A DNA stretch of 64,000 nt from Zychaea mexicana (Eukaryota > Mucoromycota > Mucoromycetes > Mucorales > Lichtheimiaceae), in NCBI RefSeq assembly GCF_025766255.1, contig NW_026516775.1:1-64000 (forward strand), written 5' to 3'. The position numbers were made by a program, and so were the translations under genes. Below the pieces are notes generated by a model. That model searched no databases. It worked only from the letters and a program-made list of their open reading frames with translations, and was not told where the DNA came from. Below are positions 49,508 through 64,000 of this stretch, piece after piece; position 1 is the first letter of the stretch; every line of letters starts with the position of its first letter.

Positions 49508-51292
49508 TTATGATTTTACATGTAAGGATGATGATGTACCTTGCGGAAGTGCTAGAGGTGCCGAAGTGGTTGTTGATTGGCGCCTGTCCAAGTCACTTTG
49601 CACTTGCAAACGGTGTTGCATCTCAAGCAATGCCACATTCTCTGCAGCAGCCACGTTTGCCAAGAATTTACCATGCTGGGCAGCAACTTGGTCTTGTTCC
49701 GCCTGCAGAATAGCACCTGGAAAGAGATGACGCCCAGGGCTGACACCTATAATTGACGAGTGGTGAATACATTTCAATGATAGGTTGTGAAATTATGAGA
49801 ACAAAGATAATATACCAAGAAAATCATGCCACATTTCTGAAGCATTAAAGTACTCCTCTATTGCTACAGAAGAGAGTGCATGCGAGTCTGTTGTTGCCTG
49901 TGCGTAATTGTGTGTGGCAGTTCTGGACGAGTGGCCTGCCTGCAGGTCCACTGTATAATTTCTGCTGTGATGTGCGCGCAAATGTTGGATATGATATCGT
50001 GAGAATGCAATGGACACATGGCGATAATCTTGAAAGCTCAAACGAGAAGGAAGGAGCAGATGCCAGCGGGCTTGGAAATGCGTGCGGAGAAGGTCGGCCG
50101 ACATTTTTGCACCGTTGCACACAAAGAAGTATGCCATTGTGTCAAGCATTTTTTGGTTTGAATTTGAGCATTCATAAATGAAGAGGCTAGCGAAATAAAT
50201 ACAGTTGGACATTGCATGGTAGACTTTTAGAGTGAAATGTGGATACCTTTCTATTGGTCGGATAAATATGATATAGTGGAGGAACAAGCAGACAAGAGAG
50301 TGAAGAATGAAACGGGCGATGGCTTGGTCTCGTTGCTTGATATTTCGTGTTTTCTGATATGTGGTTAGAAGCATCAATGTTTGATGTTCGTTTAACCAAT
50401 ACAGGTTGCGTGTTGTGTGTGTTGTGTTTTGAAGTAAGGTGCCTTCTAGCTCTGTGGCCCGAGCTGTTTGGCCATATATAAGATGCATGAGCATGAACTA
50501 ACCACGTTGGATTTGTTCAGCTGTTGTAATGAATGATTTGATGGCGGACGGATTGTATGTAGTGCTGTTGTTACTTATATGTTGAATATAAGTATGGGGT
50601 AGGCGTGGTGTGCTGTGTATGTGATGAAGGATGTGGCCAAATTGATGCCGGAGGTTGTTCTTTGGGTCATGAAAAATGAATAATTGATGTCACGATTGTT
50701 GAAATTGTCGTATAGGTGGATTGGTTTATTGTTGCGGAATTGAAGGAGATTGTCAAGGTCGATGTTGAAGGTGAGTTTATTAATGTTTTGCTGTATACTG
50801 GTTCTTAAGTTGGTGACTAGGAGACGCAAATCATGTACATGAATGCTCTCGTTTGTTTCGACCATAGCAAGTGACAGATGGTTTGTGTGTGGTGTCCATA
50901 TTATTTTGTCAGTGACAAACTCTGATGAGTCAGAGATTGATGCAATCTGGCTGTATTCGGCAATAGCAGTATATGCAGACGACTTGCCATCGATCAAGAA
51001 ATCTTGGCACGGATAACACTAATGGGGCCACGCCGTCCAATGAAACTAGACCTTTACATTTAAGCTCTTCCAATAAAACCTGACCTTTACATTTTGCGTG
51101 TAACAATTTTCTGTGAGTGTAACAGTTTTTTGAAACAGAGAACACCCTCTGCGCCCACTGCGCCTACGGCAACGGCATCTGCTGCATAATAAAGTACGAC
51201 TGTCAAGTCCTTCTGGTAGTGTCAAACTCTTATTGTCATTTTTCAACCTTTATACTCTTCTAAACACTTTACTCTCAATTGTACCATTTCTA

Positions 51293-54200
51293 ATGCCATT
51301 GAACGAGAAAAAACGCGGTCGACCACTACACAGAAAGAACGCACCGGGCCACAAGGCAGGAAGACCACGAAAAGATGAAACAAGGTCGACTGACTTGCCA
51401 AAAGGGCAACAAACACTCAATTTCAACAAAAACGGCTCCAATCTTGCTGAGCCTATTGAAGATTTTGGCAATGATCAAGATCTGTATGAACCTGAAATCG
51501 TCGTACCTGAAACCAATGATTCCGCGGAAAACCAGTCCACGACAGATATTGCGACGGAGACTGTTGTTGGCGTCGACGAGTTGTTATCAATCCGTGAGCT
51601 ACTGAACAACAGGAGCAGCAAACAGCTGAGGTTGATAATAACAGCGCAGATATGGAGTTTGACGACGATTACGTTGACGAAACTGCTCCTATACCAGAAG
51701 ATGATCTGCCTGAAGGTGAAGAATCGGATAGCGTATTGAAAAAATACTTCCTTGAATTACAACGACGCTTCCAAGAGAAAGACAACGGATATCCAAGGGA
51801 ATATCGCAACGGTACTTTTTGGGTGACTCCAAAGGATCCTTATTTCGCTTTAATGGATAACCTTGACCCAGACGAACTTTACAAACCACGCGTGTTCTTA
51901 TGGTTTCCTCACCTCCTTGTCAAAAACTTCGAGTCATTAAAATGTACTCTCTGCAAGTCGAATCTTAAAGTCAAGGGATACACAAAAACACCATGTGCAC
52001 GTCGTGTGGTCGATCTTGACAGGTACTAGTTTCATTTACATAGTGACATTGTACTTGTCATTGTGCTTACACTACATTACTATATCTTAGCTGCTTTTAT
52101 ATTATGGGCATGCGTTACGAATGTACCAAAAAAGAATGTGGAGCTACCATAATCAGCAACGATCCAGATATAATCCGACAATTACCTTACATGTTGCAAT
52201 GTGAATATCCTGGTTACATGACTCATCGCTGCGGCCTAGCAAAAACAGTTGGTGATTTGTATCGACCTTGTGTACAAAACTCGGTGGGACCCAAACGTTT
52301 CCAAAAGATTCTGCGTGAAATGCACTGGCTTAAATACTCCAGAAGAAAATTTCAGTATTATCAAGCCGTCCTCTTTCGACGCCTCAATCCAACTGTGTCT
52401 CAGACAGGAAACAACAACGATGCGAAACGTTTTTCTGATTTCAATGATCAATCCAAATATGCCGGTCGTATACCATCACCACAATATTTCCGTACATTTT
52501 ATACTGTTTTTATCGGTGAAATACGACGACTATTGGACAGGCAGATTGAGATCCTTGACGGTGTTTATTTAAAAGGTGATCACACGTTCAAGTTGATCAA
52601 GCTCATGAGCAAGATAAACGGCCAACAAGCTTTCGCTGCCCTCTATACGGTACTGAACGAATATGAGGAAGTACGCCTTCAATTCCTTGTGCCATCCAAG
52701 GCATTATATCACTTACAATACGCATTTGATGCAATGCGTAACGCGTACGATTTATATGGTTATGAGCATCCGCAAGTTTTTTTTTACGGATAATGTAACC
52801 GGTGATCAACAATTTCTAAAAGACGCGTTACCATCACTTACAAAGGATGTTACGCCAGTTATCGAAAAAGAGCCAGAAGCTGTACTCAATGCCCGTACAT
52901 ATCCGTTACTCCAAATTCCAGATCATGTTGGCGTTCACTGCATCCGTAATCCTGAGGAAATTGACTCTTCTGTTACCTTGCTTCTTCGACAAGCAGAAGC
53001 ATCGTCTTCAATTGGCAATGGTCAATCTGAATATAAGTCACAAGCAATTGGATTGGATTGCGAATGGCCATTCAAAAGAGGAAACCGGCGTGGAAAAGTT
53101 GCTACTATACAACTTGCATACGATGACACGGTGCTGGTATGCTGCGTCAGCCAGTGTGACAAGTTGCCGACTTCTTTAAGTGCTCTACTTTCAAGTAACC
53201 GAATCTTGAAAGTCGGCCGTAATGTGAGCAAGGACCTCAGCAACATCGAAGAAGATTTTAATATACGATGTAAAGGAGCATGTGAACTCGGTGCATTTTG
53301 CAAGAGCCAAGGCGCGATTCAGGATGGAAGGATGGGATTGAAGAATATGTGTGAAGTGATATTCGGACGAACACTTTACAAAGGTGATGATGTCCGTCAA
53401 AGCAGCTGGGATGCTCTGGACCTTACGGAGGATCAAGTGCATTATGCGGCATTAGACGCGTGGGCCTCTTTACAAGTTTTCGAAGAAGTGAGAAGCCATG
53501 GTGTCATTGGACTGCCCATCTCTCAACCTACTGAAGGTAATGTTTATTCAATATAGCAAAAGTTGATACTCTTATTCTTTTTCTGATTGATCCTGTGGAT
53601 GCTTTTATTAGGCACTGATATCTCATTTCATCCTGGGCGTATGAAGGATGCTGCTGCTTATGGGGAGATAGCAAAGCAATACAACGAGTTGAATGGAGTC
53701 CAAGTCAAGAAAAACCAAGTCATCATCACTGTTAAAAGAGTCCTTATCCCTGGTGCAATGATAGCCGCACACGATAAATGTTTGCGTAGCTTTGAGAGAC
53801 CGAAATTCCAAGTTATCGTTAGGTTAAATGAGCTACGCACATATAAGAAAGTATCAGTCCAACATGAAGAATTACCAAGTCCTCCTTCGACAGCAGCGGT
53901 GACAACTAGCTCAAGAATACCAGAAGAACTTGATCCGGACACAGAGAACGTATATATACACTCACTTCTCTTCTTTTGCTTTTTAAACACGCCAATTGAT
54001 ATTAATGCATTCTCTGTATATACAAATATAAGCTGCTATTGCTGACGAAGACAGCGATGAATCGATTGATGGAGAATGTGAGGACGATATAGAAGCAATC
54101 GACGATGAGGAAAATATTCAAGTATTATCATCGGGCATCCATGAAGAAAGCCAGCAATATGGCCATCGACAATTCCAGCAACTTCGCGACGGCCAACACA

Positions 54201-56267
54201 CCTCACCAAACAGCACTAGTGGACCCATTCGATCAAGAATCCTAAAGGATATTTTTCACCTGATGGACATAATCAAAGTGTCAAAAAAGCATGGTCTATC
54301 AAAGATATTTTCACGCGCTTTCCGCGATGCACTTTTTATCATTGACAAGAGTGATAAAGAAAAAGTGAAGAAGGTACTAGCAAAACAAGGAACCACGTGG
54401 AATAAGAAGCTTGGTGAAAACCCGAATTGGATTTTCCGTAGGGTTAGACGTAAGTTTATCATCGTTAAAGCTACACATTTTATCCATGACGTAAGATAAA
54501 TCCTGACATATATGTACGATATTGTTAGGTGTTGTACCGCCTCCCGAAGAACTGTATCCAACAGTCAAAAAGTTGTTTGAAACATACGGTCCATTGATTT
54601 GCGCTAGAACAGGTCGTCCTTTGTTCGACTATGACAACTGGCGACAAGCAAAAAATGTGTTGACAATCATTCATCAAGGCCATGTATCTGATCCTCCCGG
54701 AATTCCATTTTATTTCGTTAAAGGAAAAGACAAGGATGGCTTAACTCTGTATCGCTGCACTCGGGGAACCAACTCCCTTGAGGGAGGAATTCATCAGAAT
54801 CTGATCAGAAGTTTTGGCTCATTTGGTGCCAGTGTAGAGCTTGTTGAATCTGCTTTGGCGGATTATCGCCTACGGCACAATACTAATGTAAGTTATTCAT
54901 CACTACGTTGTTCGAATATTTGAAAATCTTGAATGTGAATATAAATACGATTTTTTTGACTGTAGGCTGGATCTCTTAATCGATATGGTCGTGTCCATGA
55001 TGGGCATTATGACCCTTGGTTGGATCAATATATCAACGAACTGGAAATCGCTCTTAATATACAAGGTACACAACCTGGTCTGCATCAAAACCCGCTTCAC
55101 GTCTTATCGTCCTACGAAACATTTGGAATATCACCATTGCCAACTGATATGATGGCGAATTTTGGGATACAAGAGCAATCTCGCATCCAACCTGCAACCA
55201 ATATACGTGAAACATCATCTTTCGAGATTTCTACACTTATTATCATCAATAGTTCCACGAGCACAATATAAGTTTATTGCTGCACGCCAAAAAGCAGCGC
55301 ACGCTTTGGTGCCAGTTCATACGCCATCCGAGAAAGACTTATTCACGGATCTTTTAGACAAGCATTTCCCGCATCACAAATCCAAATCCGTCGATTATGT
55401 CAGGCTTACAAAGATTTGGTCACAGCATGTCAATGGAACAGAAATATTTTATAAAGCACCAGAGCATTTACGAAGCCGACATAATCTTACCAAAGAAAAA
55501 GATAATACCGATAAAACAATCAAAAACAACAAAGAAGAACTGGACGAAATGCGCAATACACTCAACTCCTCGTCGAGAAAAAGAGCAGCTCCATCTCCAC
55601 AGCAACAACAACCATATCACCAAAGTCATCCCGCACTCAGCACTTCCAGTCACAGAATGCACCAGGCGAAGTCATTCATACCACTTCACCAAGCTCCCTT
55701 TTAACGCGCCCAATATCTAACACTAGCATCCGACCACAACTCCCTCCTATCCTAGCACAACAGCTAAATCAGCCGATACAATATCACACACAAAACCAAG
55801 GCCACGCTATATCTCAACAGCAGCAGTCATTATTCACATACCAACAACAACAGCAACCGCATTATCTTTTACAACAGCAGCAAATGCATTTAACCAACTT
55901 CCAACAGCAGCAACTACCTCTACCACAGTATACTTTTGTGCAGCATCCAAGTTTAAATCCATATCAACCACAATATCAAACGCATACTTCGTTTCAACAT
56001 CAACTACGAAATCCAAGTGGTATTCATCCTAATATACAACCAATAATACCGAAAAACATAACAAGTAGCAACTCTTCTGCCAGCACCAATATACTTAGTG
56101 GGCTGCGTAAGTGGCACGAAAAAACATGCAAGATATGTAAACGATCAGACTGGAACGGCAAAAACAAAGGTGCTCAAAATTGCCAGCATATGTGCGCATG
56201 GTGTCGCAAACCGAACTGCCTTGGCAAAACAAGTGGCGCACAATACTGTCAACATATCGACGATTAG
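51293..56267 (+). pseudogene. DDE transposase with inserted DEDDy 3'-5' exonuclease (frameshifted)
   Basis: Exons 51293-52022, 52091-53536, 53612-53949, 54033-54449, 54529-54887 and 54966-56267, all GT-AG introns. Order: basic AT-hook-like N-terminus (KKRGRP, AGRPRK); a zinc-ribbon-like region (CTLC...C...YEC...C) of the DUF6729 kind; DDE motifs LKGDHTFK (first Asp) and FFTDNVTGD (second Asp); a complete RNase D/Werner-type exonuclease (IGLDCEWPF; VGRNVSKDL; HYAALDAW, that is D-x-E, D, Y-x3-D); an acidic linker; RCTRGTNSLEGGIH (likely third acidic residue); a helical region; a Gln-rich stretch; and a C-terminal Cys/His cluster (CKICKR...CAWCRK...CQH). Frameshifts lie near 51600, in a nine-T run at 52777-52785, near 55163 and around 55580. 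Several are in homopolymers, so assembly error is possible. No in-frame stops otherwise. The nuclease activities are inferred from motifs. Confidence 0.72.
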
Positions 56268-56486
56268 CTCTACATATTTAATATCATTTCAACACCATAT
56301 TGCTATCATTAACTATCTCTGAAACGTTCTCTTAAAGTATAGAAAATAAGCTCCTCTCTCAACGCCCTTCTTTCATTGTTATCCAGCATATAGTATGTCT
56401 GCTATCATATTTTTATCCAATACAATCTTCTTCCTATAATAACAATTGATTTATGCTATATATTAGTTAATTCCTTTTTTTTTTCA

Positions 56487-56513
56487 GAAAAGTTCCCCTT
56501 CGGGGAACTTTTC
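56487..56513. other. Perfect 12-bp hairpin near the right end of the exonuclease-DDE element
   Basis: GAAAAGTTCCCC, loop TTC (or a CTTCGG tetraloop), GGGGAACTTTTC, with a T run before and an A run after, so the symmetry extends slightly. It lies about 50 bp from the inferred end. Could be a subterminal recognition structure or a transcript 3'-end element. Confidence 0.8.
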
Positions 56514-58235
56514 CAAAAAAATGAAATTAATTCCCTTGGCCCCATACATACTACCCGAGCCGAAATCTTGGTAATTTGTGGTAAAGCTAAAAAAGAGTTT
56601 ATTATGCAAGTGTGGAAGGTGTAATATAGAATGGAAAAAGCAAAGAACTTACACTGTAATTAAGTTTTGATTTGTATGGCATATGTAAATATTATTAAGT
56701 AAAAGTAAGCGGAACCAGTACTTGATCTGCGAAATAAAAGGTGCGATGGAGCTGACATCTTTGAACTGCCCATTGAATTGCAAGGACGAAGCAATAACAA
56801 ACCGAGCAATGGTATATCCGTTGGTAGCGACATCAAAAGGTTTTTCTTCTTTTAACAAAGCAATCCACAATTTACAAATTTGCGATTCAATGTTTGCAGC
56901 AGTCTGTGATGACAATTGGGCTAGATTGACATTTGCTGATAGCGTTGCAATATTGGTGAGGATCGTATCAATAGTTGAAGACCAAGTACCCAAAACAGAA
57001 GACCAGTGAAACGACGGATGTGAAGTAAAAAGGTTAATAGATTGGCACCAGTTTGGGTATACCGTTGGATAGTGGGCCGCTCAAGTTAGTTGAATCCATG
57101 ATCAGGGAGTGGTTCGGAGAGCCTAAAGAAAGCAAATAAGTTAGAGTGGATGACTGAAACAAAGTAGATAGTTTCGACATTTACTTTTTCTGTTTAAGAT
57201 AACGACGAAGGGTATAGTCTTTTTCATGAATACAGTTGTGCAAGCGGACAAAAAGCTACTTATTAACTTTTGCTCCAACTTTTAGTACATTTTCCTCTGC
57301 ATGGATTTTCTTTATTAAATCATAGATAGTGACAGGGATGTTTCTTGATGTGCGCTTAGGATGTTGTTTTTAGTGTTGGTTGTGTGCTATAAAGAGAATA
57401 GTGAGCAAGTTGACAATACTATAAATGTAGAATAGCTATCAAAGTAAAAAAAAAGTACCTGTTTCCCACTATTCGACAATGTCATACCACTTTGTGTGAG
57501 TAAAAAACCATGGGATCAGCTTACGGTCAGTATCAATGTTTGACGTTTGGCCAAAGGCAGGTTCCAGACGAGTAAAAGCATTGGCAATGATTTCATGATT
57601 GCTTAATAATGATACATCTGGTGCAGGTACAGTGACAGTTGGTTGCTCAGTTAGTGCAGCTACTGGTAAATCACAGTTTTGACAGTAGCGCTGCATTACT
57701 TGAAAGTGGGTAGTTTTGAACCCACAATGGCATTAGACACATCGCTTAGCATCGACTAGAAGTGCAGTTACATTTCCTATAAAGTCATCAGTATTTCAAT
57801 GTAATATAAAAGGTAAACGTCATAGGAAAGATACATACCGTTATAGTTGGGATACTTGATATTTACTTTTTTCTGGTGTGTTTTGCAAATGTGTCGCTTA
57901 CGAGCAGATTTTGAAGAAAAATATAAATTACACTCTTCAATTCCACAAAGCACGCCTGAATGCTGTGTGGGTTGCGATGTACCCGGCTCTGTACTGTCGC
58001 TTTCAGTACCGCTGTTGTTGCTAGATTCACTTTCTGAACCACTAGATGTTGAGGAATGTGCTGAACGACTAGGGCTATAGTCACTGCCGCTATCAGGTAT
58101 GTTTGCATCAATGATTGTTTTATGTAGACGGTGGGTAAAGGATGATGTTGATGAAGGCAGAGCTAATTGGCGATGAGATGCCTGGGCAGACTGTGGTGCA
58201 GAAGAGATCACAGGAGCAGGACGTCTTTTGAAAAC

Positions 58236-61724: not shown

Positions 61725-62060
61725 CATTATGATTTTAGCAAAATGATTATTAGCTAAAAAATTATAAGTAATATAATTTTTAAATAATTATAATAAATCA
61801 TGAAATTAATTTTTTGTTAAAAAAATAATTTCTTAACCCTTATGGTTATTCTCAATCACTAAGTTTAGGAAAAATCAGGCTAGAACCTTAGTTCGACGCC
61901 TGAAGTGAATGAAATGAACGGAGCTTGACAGAATAATAAAATATCATAAATTTGTTATTTATAACAAAATTTATAGATATTGTTTATTCTTCTAGTATGT
62001 GAGATGAGAAAGGCCTTGTGCCTTTCCATCTGTATGGTGTCACACACACACACACACTTG
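61725..62060. other. AT-rich block with a long palindrome at a gene edge
   Basis: Begins next to the first exon of the 60357-61722 gene. The palindrome at 61927-62005 pairs AGAATAATAAAATATC with GATATTGTTTATTCT around TTGTTAT...ATAACAA. A similar palindrome sits at 58495-58556. It ends near a (CA)n microsatellite (62041-62056). Confidence 0.5.
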
Positions 62061-62441
62061 TTCATTTTAATAATATATAAAGTTAGCTCGCTACGCAAGC
62101 TTTTAGGAGGATGTTTACTAGTTGAAGTTTTTCATCTAAACTAAGCTTAACAAAATATTTAAGGTTTACAAAAGTTCCTCATGTTTACAAATTTATTATA
62201 TTTTTAAAATTGAATATAAAAAAAATTGAATTTTAATTAAATATAGAAATATATTACAATAGATAACCAACAAATAGATGAAAAGATTAATAATGAAGTT
62301 AATAAAATTATTGTTAATAAGTGGATATATTCATAGCCATAAGTAATAATAATTTTATTAATAAGGAGATTATTTATAAATTTATAATTACTATTGTATT
62401 TCTAAAAAAAAATTGAATTTCTATTTATTAAAAAAGTAATA
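62061..62441. other. AT-rich flank, nothing recognised
   Basis: No ORF. Upstream region of the HARBI-like gene. Confidence 0.5.
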
Positions 62442-63965
62442 ATGATGGATGTTAATAGCTTGATAACAAATGAGATTAATTCAATTCTTATAAATCATTG
62501 GATTTTTTTGAATAATAATTGGCCTGTTATTAATCATAAATATAAACATAGAACTGAATTAAAACATATAAATTATATAGACATCATTAAAAAAAATTAG
62601 TAGAAAAATTAGGATATATTGCTGTATTTTTCTTTTTGATAGTATTATATAGCAATAAGGAGTACCCTGGACCTTACTATGAAATTGAAAAAGGTTTATT
62701 CTTATTATACCATTTAGTTTCGGTATTGCTGGGAAAGAAGAAATAGATAAATATCTTCCGCAAAGTACATTTCATCGCTTTTATAAAAAATTTTGGATGG
62801 ATGAAGATAATTATAAAAGGTTAAACAAAATTGTTAATGAGTCATTAGATACTATGTTTTCTAATATAAGATTAAGAATATTATCAGCACATAAATACAA
62901 TCCTGATTTGTTTAAACATATTACTTTAATTCTTGACGGTCACGATTCAAGAATCAATTATGTGGATATAGAAATTAAGCATAGCAGATTATATTCTTAC
63001 AAATTTAAAAAAAATGGATTAAGAACACAAATCGTTAGTGATATTAATGATATGATACTTTTTATATCCAAAAGTAATTTTTGTTCAGATAGTTCAGATG
63101 GTTCAATGTTTCTTAATATGAAATTATATCACAAAATGGATGATAAAGATACTATTGCTATCGACGGCGGATATACTTTGTTTGTAAACCAATTTGTAGA
63201 TTTAGCTGTTGAAAAAGGTTATACATATAGTGATTCTAATTTTGTTTATCCTATTAGAAAAAATGTTAATGAAAGTTTATCTATAATTGAAGACCATTTT
63301 AATAAGACCTTTGGAAGTTTTCGTTCAAAAATAGAAAATCAGTTTTCAGAGTTAGGTAATAAATTTTATAGATTTAATAACAATAAATCAGTTGTTAGAA
63401 TGGATAATATAAAGTTTTACAATTTACAATTTAAGGTTGCCTGTTTATTAAAAAATATTAGTATTTTTGTAGATAAATTTAATGTACCAATTTTACCCCA
63501 TCATAAACTATGGGAATCAGATGGATTTGAATTTCCTGTTGAAAAAAAATTATTAGATATTGTAGTAAGTAATGATAAGCAAAATAAAGATAAATTAGAT
63601 AAAATGCTTGAATTACAAATGAATTTCTTAAATATGAATGTATCAGAAAATTATATAGTTATTGATGAGTTTTTAGATGAAGATTCTAATAATCATAAAG
63701 ATATTTCAAGTGAAGGTGAAGATGTCCCTAAATTCAATGAAAGGTCTAAAAAAAGAAAATTAAAAGGAAAACAAAAGGAAAAAAATTATAAATCCTATCA
63801 AATTGAAGCTGTTGTTGACCATAAACTTAAAGATTATTATATACATTTTTAGTTAAATGGAAAGATTATTCCGATATTGATAATAGTTGGCTAACAAGAG
63901 ATAAATTTAATGAAAAGGAAATGTTAAATAAATATATTAAAAATAATAATCTTGGTGCATTATAA
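62442..63965 (+). pseudogene. HARBI1-like DDE transposase with frameshifted chromodomain
   Basis: Very AT-rich codon use, unlike most of the window. N-terminal fragments (MMDVNSLITNEINSILINHW from 62442; YPGPYYEIEKGLFLLYH near 62660) lie in different frames. From about 62720 the main frame reads IDKYLPQSTFHRFYKKFW and continues through the ATG at 62797 to 63852. Catalytic order of the DDE_Tnp_4/HARBI1 type: LILDGHDSR, IAIDGGYTLFVNQF, then SKIENQFSELGNKF with the Glu. A basic tail (KKRKLKGKQKEK) precedes a chromodomain, QIEAVVDHKL, which after a one-base loss in a T run near 63846-63850 continues as LVKWKDYSDIDNSWLT and ends about 63965. The motif set is firm; terminal repeats are not visible inside the window. 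Confidence 0.75.
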
Positions 63966-64000
63966 ATAATTCGATAATCTCCCCCTCCTATATACAAATG

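Follow-up and report, generated by a model that had tools for sequence, protein, structure and literature searches.

The 64,000-nucleotide stretch of Zychaea mexicana (Mucorales) DNA analyzed here (contig NW_026516775.1, positions 1 to 64,000; "the window") carries a transposon at positions 51006-56561, with GGC...GCC termini, whose transposase gene contains a DEDDy-type 3'-5' exonuclease domain. Its defined ends, its coding content, its mobility and the duplication of 8 bp upon insertion could all be demonstrated. We conclude that it is probably a cut-and-paste DNA transposon of an exonuclease-bearing, Dada-like branch, in which the exonuclease may act as an accessory trimmer of 3' ends. All coordinates are window positions, and all features of the element are given on the plus strand.

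Ends, insertion sites and mobility

The exact ends were taken from the sister families E and B, in each of which near-identical copies begin with 5' GGC and finish with 3' GCC. They place the right end of the window element where the initial annotation had put it (56561) and move the left end from 51008 to 51006. On either side lies one copy of an 8-bp target site duplication, GAAATCTT (50998-51005 and 56562-56569); the repeated 10-mer GAAATCTTGG consists of this duplication plus GG, matched by chance by the element's own GG. When the flanks were joined, the resulting empty site was found to be continuous at 11 places in the genome (93-96% identity), with further matches at 7 places (74-77% identity), and a single target copy, GTAATCTT, was present at all five unoccupied sites that we read. 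These unoccupied paralogous sites show that the window element inserted into another dispersed repeat. Four minus-strand open reading frames in the flanks (before 50998 and after 56569) gave no Pfam match above the cut-off.

The segment of the gene that spans FFTDN and the exonuclease had 82 matches in the same 50.3-Mb genome, several of them pieces of one locus. The window copy itself has no close sister, its next best match reaching 58% protein identity, as might be expected of a single-copy host gene derived from a domesticated transposase. Such an origin is nevertheless extremely improbable for the window copy, given that it is flanked by a duplication, that unoccupied paralogous sites exist, that its sister families are multicopy and recent, and that the reading frame of the gene is broken (see below), and for the family as a whole it is refuted by the insertion evidence. 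The duplication, the unoccupied sites and the multicopy sister families with duplications of their own thus bear out the initial annotation of the locus as a transposon.

Genome-wide pairing of ends yielded 11 copies, seven of which were flanked by perfect 8-bp duplications (AATATAGG, AAAATTTT, CCAGTATG, AGGCTTCT, GTTTTTTT, AAGAAGTG and CCATTTGG); the copies on C101, C277, C240 (two mismatches) and C291 lacked an exact one. One of the two copies of family F also had an exact 8-bp duplication (GAATTTAC), so that the overall frequency, including the window copy, was 9 of 14. The copies were located by their ends, and the exactness of these ends should therefore be judged with caution. Over 5.04 kb, two family E copies showed 100% identity and a third showed 99.8%; five were 99.9-100% identical over the 3.7 kb first compared. 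These copies lie at different sites, indicating recent movement of the family; the recently moved copies keep the exonuclease residues. An internally deleted, 2.1-kb family E derivative with both ends (G000:C277:14670-16762) is possibly a non-autonomous copy.

Short sub-terminal inverted repeats were found in the window element, family B and family E (9, 8 and 9 bp, respectively), starting exactly at base 17 from both ends. In the window element these are ATGGGGCCA on the left (51022-51030, nucleotides 17-25 from the left end) and TGGCCCCAT on the right (56537-56545). In a random control, an 8-mer at near-equal offsets occurred in 35 of 5000 end pairs. Family F had no inverted repeat of 8-9 bp, and only CTGGG could be recognized by eye at the same place.

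The transposase gene and its embedded exonuclease

In the public model, the transposase gene (51293-56267) has ten exons, which to the nearest codon are 51293-51562, 51613-52020, 52089-52736, 52825-53538, 53614-53751, 54032-54451, 54531-54887, 54966-55064, 55252-55647 and 55758-56264. The corresponding public protein, BDB00DRAFT_877589 (1321 residues; P0012 in our set), is identical in sequence to the window exons. All of the motifs named in the initial annotation are present at the places given there. The DDE residues comprise the first Asp in LKGDHTFK (52578-52580), the second Asp in FFTDNV (52789-52791) and the Glu in NSLEGG (54780-54782). The full DEDDy set lies between the second Asp and the Glu, with the exonuclease D and E at 53056-53064, the second D at 53233-53235, the Tyr at 53443-53445 and the final D at 53455-53457. 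A DxxH motif (DIFH, 54248-54259), previously unnamed, is located between the exonuclease and the Glu.

In Pfam searches, the gene matched DNA_pol_A_exo1 (PF01612, E value 9e-16, 53032-53490) and, on two adjacent exon pieces, DUF6729 (E values 1.7e-4 and 2.5e-6), the remaining matches being weak and under the cut-off. The zinc ribbon and the Cys/His cluster that the initial annotation placed before and after these motifs were likewise recovered, as a C4 ribbon within DUF6729 (51943-52139) and as C-terminal CxxC clusters (56127-56249). No paper on DUF6729 was found in the literature searched, in which subscription journals were mostly not covered.

The description of the locus as one spliced gene agrees with the ten-exon model, but the window copy spans more than one frame: a break in a T-run (52777-52785), due either to mutation or to a sequencing error, parts the first and second Asp motifs. 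The public model removes about 52738-52822 as a short GT-AG intron, and P0012 consequently lacks the second Asp, so that automatic annotation hides the motif. Some sister-family copies read openly through this region. Homologues of other fungi have the same motif order, as the initial annotation had proposed to look for, and the sister families with duplications lie in the same genome; a chance assembly of motifs was ruled out by this shared order together with the 82 genomic matches.

The fold of the core was assessed on the predicted structure of a homologue (pLDDT, the model's own confidence score, 83.7). Its elements are ordered as in RNase H, and the exonuclease forms an insertion behind the second Asp, which is the arrangement envisaged in the initial annotation. 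The DDE core is thus predicted to adopt an RNase H fold of the MULE/hAT/P/Kolobok/Dada type.

Conservation and possible role of the exonuclease

Among 114 proteins, we defined 46 complete homologues by pattern matches for D1, D2, DxxH and E, a set that does not include P0012. All five DEDDy residues are kept in 37 of them. The remaining nine are three Apophysomyces models without the domain (P0011, P0013 and P0018, with only 13-52 residues between D2 and DxxH), two proteins with dead sites (P0010 and P0084) and four in which one or two DEDDy positions are changed or fall in a gap (P0006, P0027, P0076 and P0090). The Apophysomyces models apparently reflect either true loss or the splicing out of the domain during gene modeling. 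Both dead sequences are metagenomic and read NIQNA and SVQNI, respectively, in place of DEDYD. They form one lineage (support 100/99 in a tree with four distant rows left out) and are otherwise complete transposases.

The dead pair is 43% identical in the exonuclease region and 61% and 71% identical in the core, and a live pair gave similar values (47% versus 67% and 73%). The exonuclease was less conserved than the N-terminal part of the core in eight of nine live pairs, in a proportion like that of the dead pair; in the exception, P0042/P0037, it was better conserved. The dead exonuclease is thus about as conserved as live ones, indicating that the domain can persist without catalysis.

At the nucleotide level, the proportion of non-synonymous differences (pN) in divergent genomic pairs indicated constraint (exonuclease 0.30, core 0.20, for the window copy versus L002; exonuclease 0.30, core 0.23, for L005 versus L008), and more distant pairs gave 0.27-0.42 for the exonuclease and 0.19-0.37 for the cores. 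For recent copies, the ratio of non-synonymous to synonymous substitution rates (dN/dS) was 2.2 in L008/L009, from a handful of changes, and 0.86 in L005/L029; L009 and L029 each carry a stop. These values give no sign of selection among the recent copies. Exonuclease and core distances correlate (r = 0.76 over 36 shared rows, 0/2000 permutations); left out of this comparison were three core rows lacking an exonuclease and five exonuclease rows (including two outgroups) lacking a core row. Both trees recover the main close groups, and the two cellular outgroup rows fall within the transposon exonucleases, on long branches. To judge from these sequences, exonuclease and core appear to share one history.

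In the mechanism that we propose, the zinc-binding ends of the protein would bind the sub-terminal repeats at base 17, and the RNase H-fold DDE core would, as fold and homology suggest, cut and join DNA. The sites of insertion are unrelated to one another, and the stagger is 8 bp. The WRN-like exonuclease, placed shortly after the second Asp, could reach DNA in the active site and may trim 3' DNA ends that the transposase generates, on the donor or the target side, a step to which we give about an even chance. Because most copies have exact ends and duplications, the exonuclease is unlikely to chew at random into the 3' ends of the transposon itself; 3' overhangs at the donor site or the ends of target gaps would be better substrates. 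The existence of dead and missing exonucleases argues that the domain is accessory rather than an essential step.

This interpretation has to be weighed against several observations. Nine of the 46 complete homologues lack the full set of exonuclease residues, and 5 of the 14 copies lack an exact duplication. In the constrained pairs, the proportion of synonymous differences (pS) is 0.74 to 0.88, i.e., synonymous sites are near saturation. As for the core, its MULE matches score under the Pfam cut-off, the sequence of P0011 matched no solved structure up to an E value of 10, and the comparison of folds with solved structures in effect covered the exonuclease only: the best 50 fold matches listed were all exonuclease matches and are uninformative on the transposase core.

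The rival that survives best is that the domain serves mainly as a structural or DNA-end-binding insertion, with catalysis secondary. The P0010/P0084 lineage, which lost its catalytic residues and yet conserves the region much as live pairs do, is what such a role would predict. We nevertheless consider it rather unlikely, because all five residues are kept in 37 of the 46 complete homologues, the dead sequences are only two, both metagenomic, and in the live pair P0042/P0037 the exonuclease is better conserved than the N-terminal core. Less probable still is that the exonuclease acts on RNA, with element-silencing small RNAs as one example of a target, and not on the intermediates of transposition. 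RNase D, RRP6 and mut-7/Nibbler, which have the same fold, were also matched by the exonuclease, but the closest solved exonuclease, both by sequence and by fold, is that of WRN, a DNA exonuclease. In WRN, unlike here, the exonuclease is a domain of a repair helicase. The position of the exonuclease inside the DDE core and the history that it appears to share with this core both speak for the transposase's own DNA as the substrate.

Relation to known transposons and significance

The initial annotation took an exonuclease within a transposase, with a role in trimming ends, to be undescribed. In fact, both the fusion and the idea of such a role were published by Kojima and Jurka in 2013 (PMC3706591), who found the exonuclease in Dada elements of Laccaria bicolor and Ectocarpus siliculosus, gave its position and proposed 3'-end processing; our comparisons with Dada refer to the accessible part of that paper. 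There, the exonuclease is reported for Laccaria and Ectocarpus only, and the ends and targets of these elements are not given. The word exonuclease does not occur in a 2022 paper on Dada (PMC8869645).

As in the Laccaria and Ectocarpus elements, the window gene has introns and a DDE transposase with DxxH, the DEDDy exonuclease being located between the second D and DxxH, and its motif order is common with Dada of fish, Daphnia, Perkinsus and others that target U6, U1 or tRNA genes. The taxa run parallel as well: relatives here include agarics and a diatom (a stramenopile), and those of the 2013 paper are an agaric and a brown alga. An N-terminal CCCC finger pattern occurs in 28 proteins with varied spacing (2-33-4 in the window protein), the spacing 4-34-2 being common to Dada-U6_DR and P0006. 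The C-terminal pattern compared with the CCHC finger of Dada is present in 19 proteins, as CxxC-x9-C-x8-C in 4 and CxxC-x4-C-x8-C in 11; the former have the 2-9-8 spacing of CxxC-x9-H-x8-C in Dada-U6_DR, with Cys replacing His. When the core of P0095, a EukProt Partr homologue, was used as the query to look for a link to animal Dada, only P0095 itself was found among 301 candidates. P0095 also carries an extra C-terminal Ulp1-type peptidase (residues 1150-1230; Peptidase_C48, E value 3.6e-5).

The insertions themselves differ. Dada elements make 6-7 bp duplications, have short sub-terminal but no terminal inverted repeats and, wherever their ends are clearly definable, sit in small RNA genes (small nuclear RNA or tRNA genes); apparent 8-bp duplications of Dada-U1 and Dada-tIA were argued down to 6 (PMC3706591). 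The Z. mexicana elements share sub-terminal repeats equidistant from the ends (window, B and E) but have 3-bp GGC/GCC ends and 8-bp duplications, and their insertion sites are not small RNA genes. Rfam gave no match for the window or for any of 20 flank loci. ARAGORN, applied to 22 flank loci, found a single tRNA, which lies 1.2 kb off the element, and it found none in eight joined sites. Such genes do exist in this genome (at least 4 U6 and at least 55 tRNA matches over the cut-off), but no targeting of the Dada kind was found at these sites. Given the 8-bp duplications and the absence of small RNA genes at the sites, we call the elements Dada-like rather than target-specific Dada, a putative placement based on motifs and published descriptions.

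Duplications of 8 bp are also made by hAT elements. None of 49 members matched the hAT dimerization domain in a Pfam search that yielded 23 families and whose filters may miss weak matches. An exonuclease also occurs in a second group of transposons, KolobokD, which has been reported from mollusks, arthropods and cnidarians (PMC9587614, accessible part). It likewise consists of DNA transposons with a 3'-5' exonuclease in the C/DxxH group of DDE transposases, but its exonuclease is of the DEDDh type, whereas 44 of the 46 proteins here that have a residue at this position carry Tyr rather than His, and Kolobok duplications are TTAA (4 bp), unlike the varied 8-bp duplications here.

Elsewhere in the window, an open reading frame at 62689-63852 (plus strand) matches DDE_Tnp_4 (E value 1.9e-8) and is followed by bases that look chromodomain-like by eye; the surrounding 62001-64000 is AT-rich (23% GC).

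While the exonuclease fusion has been known since 2013, the 8-bp insertion mode and the retention of a dead domain seem, to judge from the literature searched, to be new. No experiment on a trimming role, and no paper that brings together transposase, exonuclease, Mucorales and transposons, was found in the literature searched. We would tentatively go further and suggest, as a doubtful proposal, that exonuclease-bearing elements form a branch apart from the small-RNA-targeting Dada, with 8-bp duplications and no preference for RNA genes. In this branch a captured exonuclease would have been built into the transposition complex, so that even a dead fold would still be needed and the domain would be both DNA-end sensor and trimmer. 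For the exonuclease-bearing branch, our analysis supplies ends, duplications and insertion sites, none of which is given in the accessible part of PMC3706591. Recent copies with intact residues, relatives with dead ones and models without the domain, all with conserved DDE motifs, together constitute a natural experiment.

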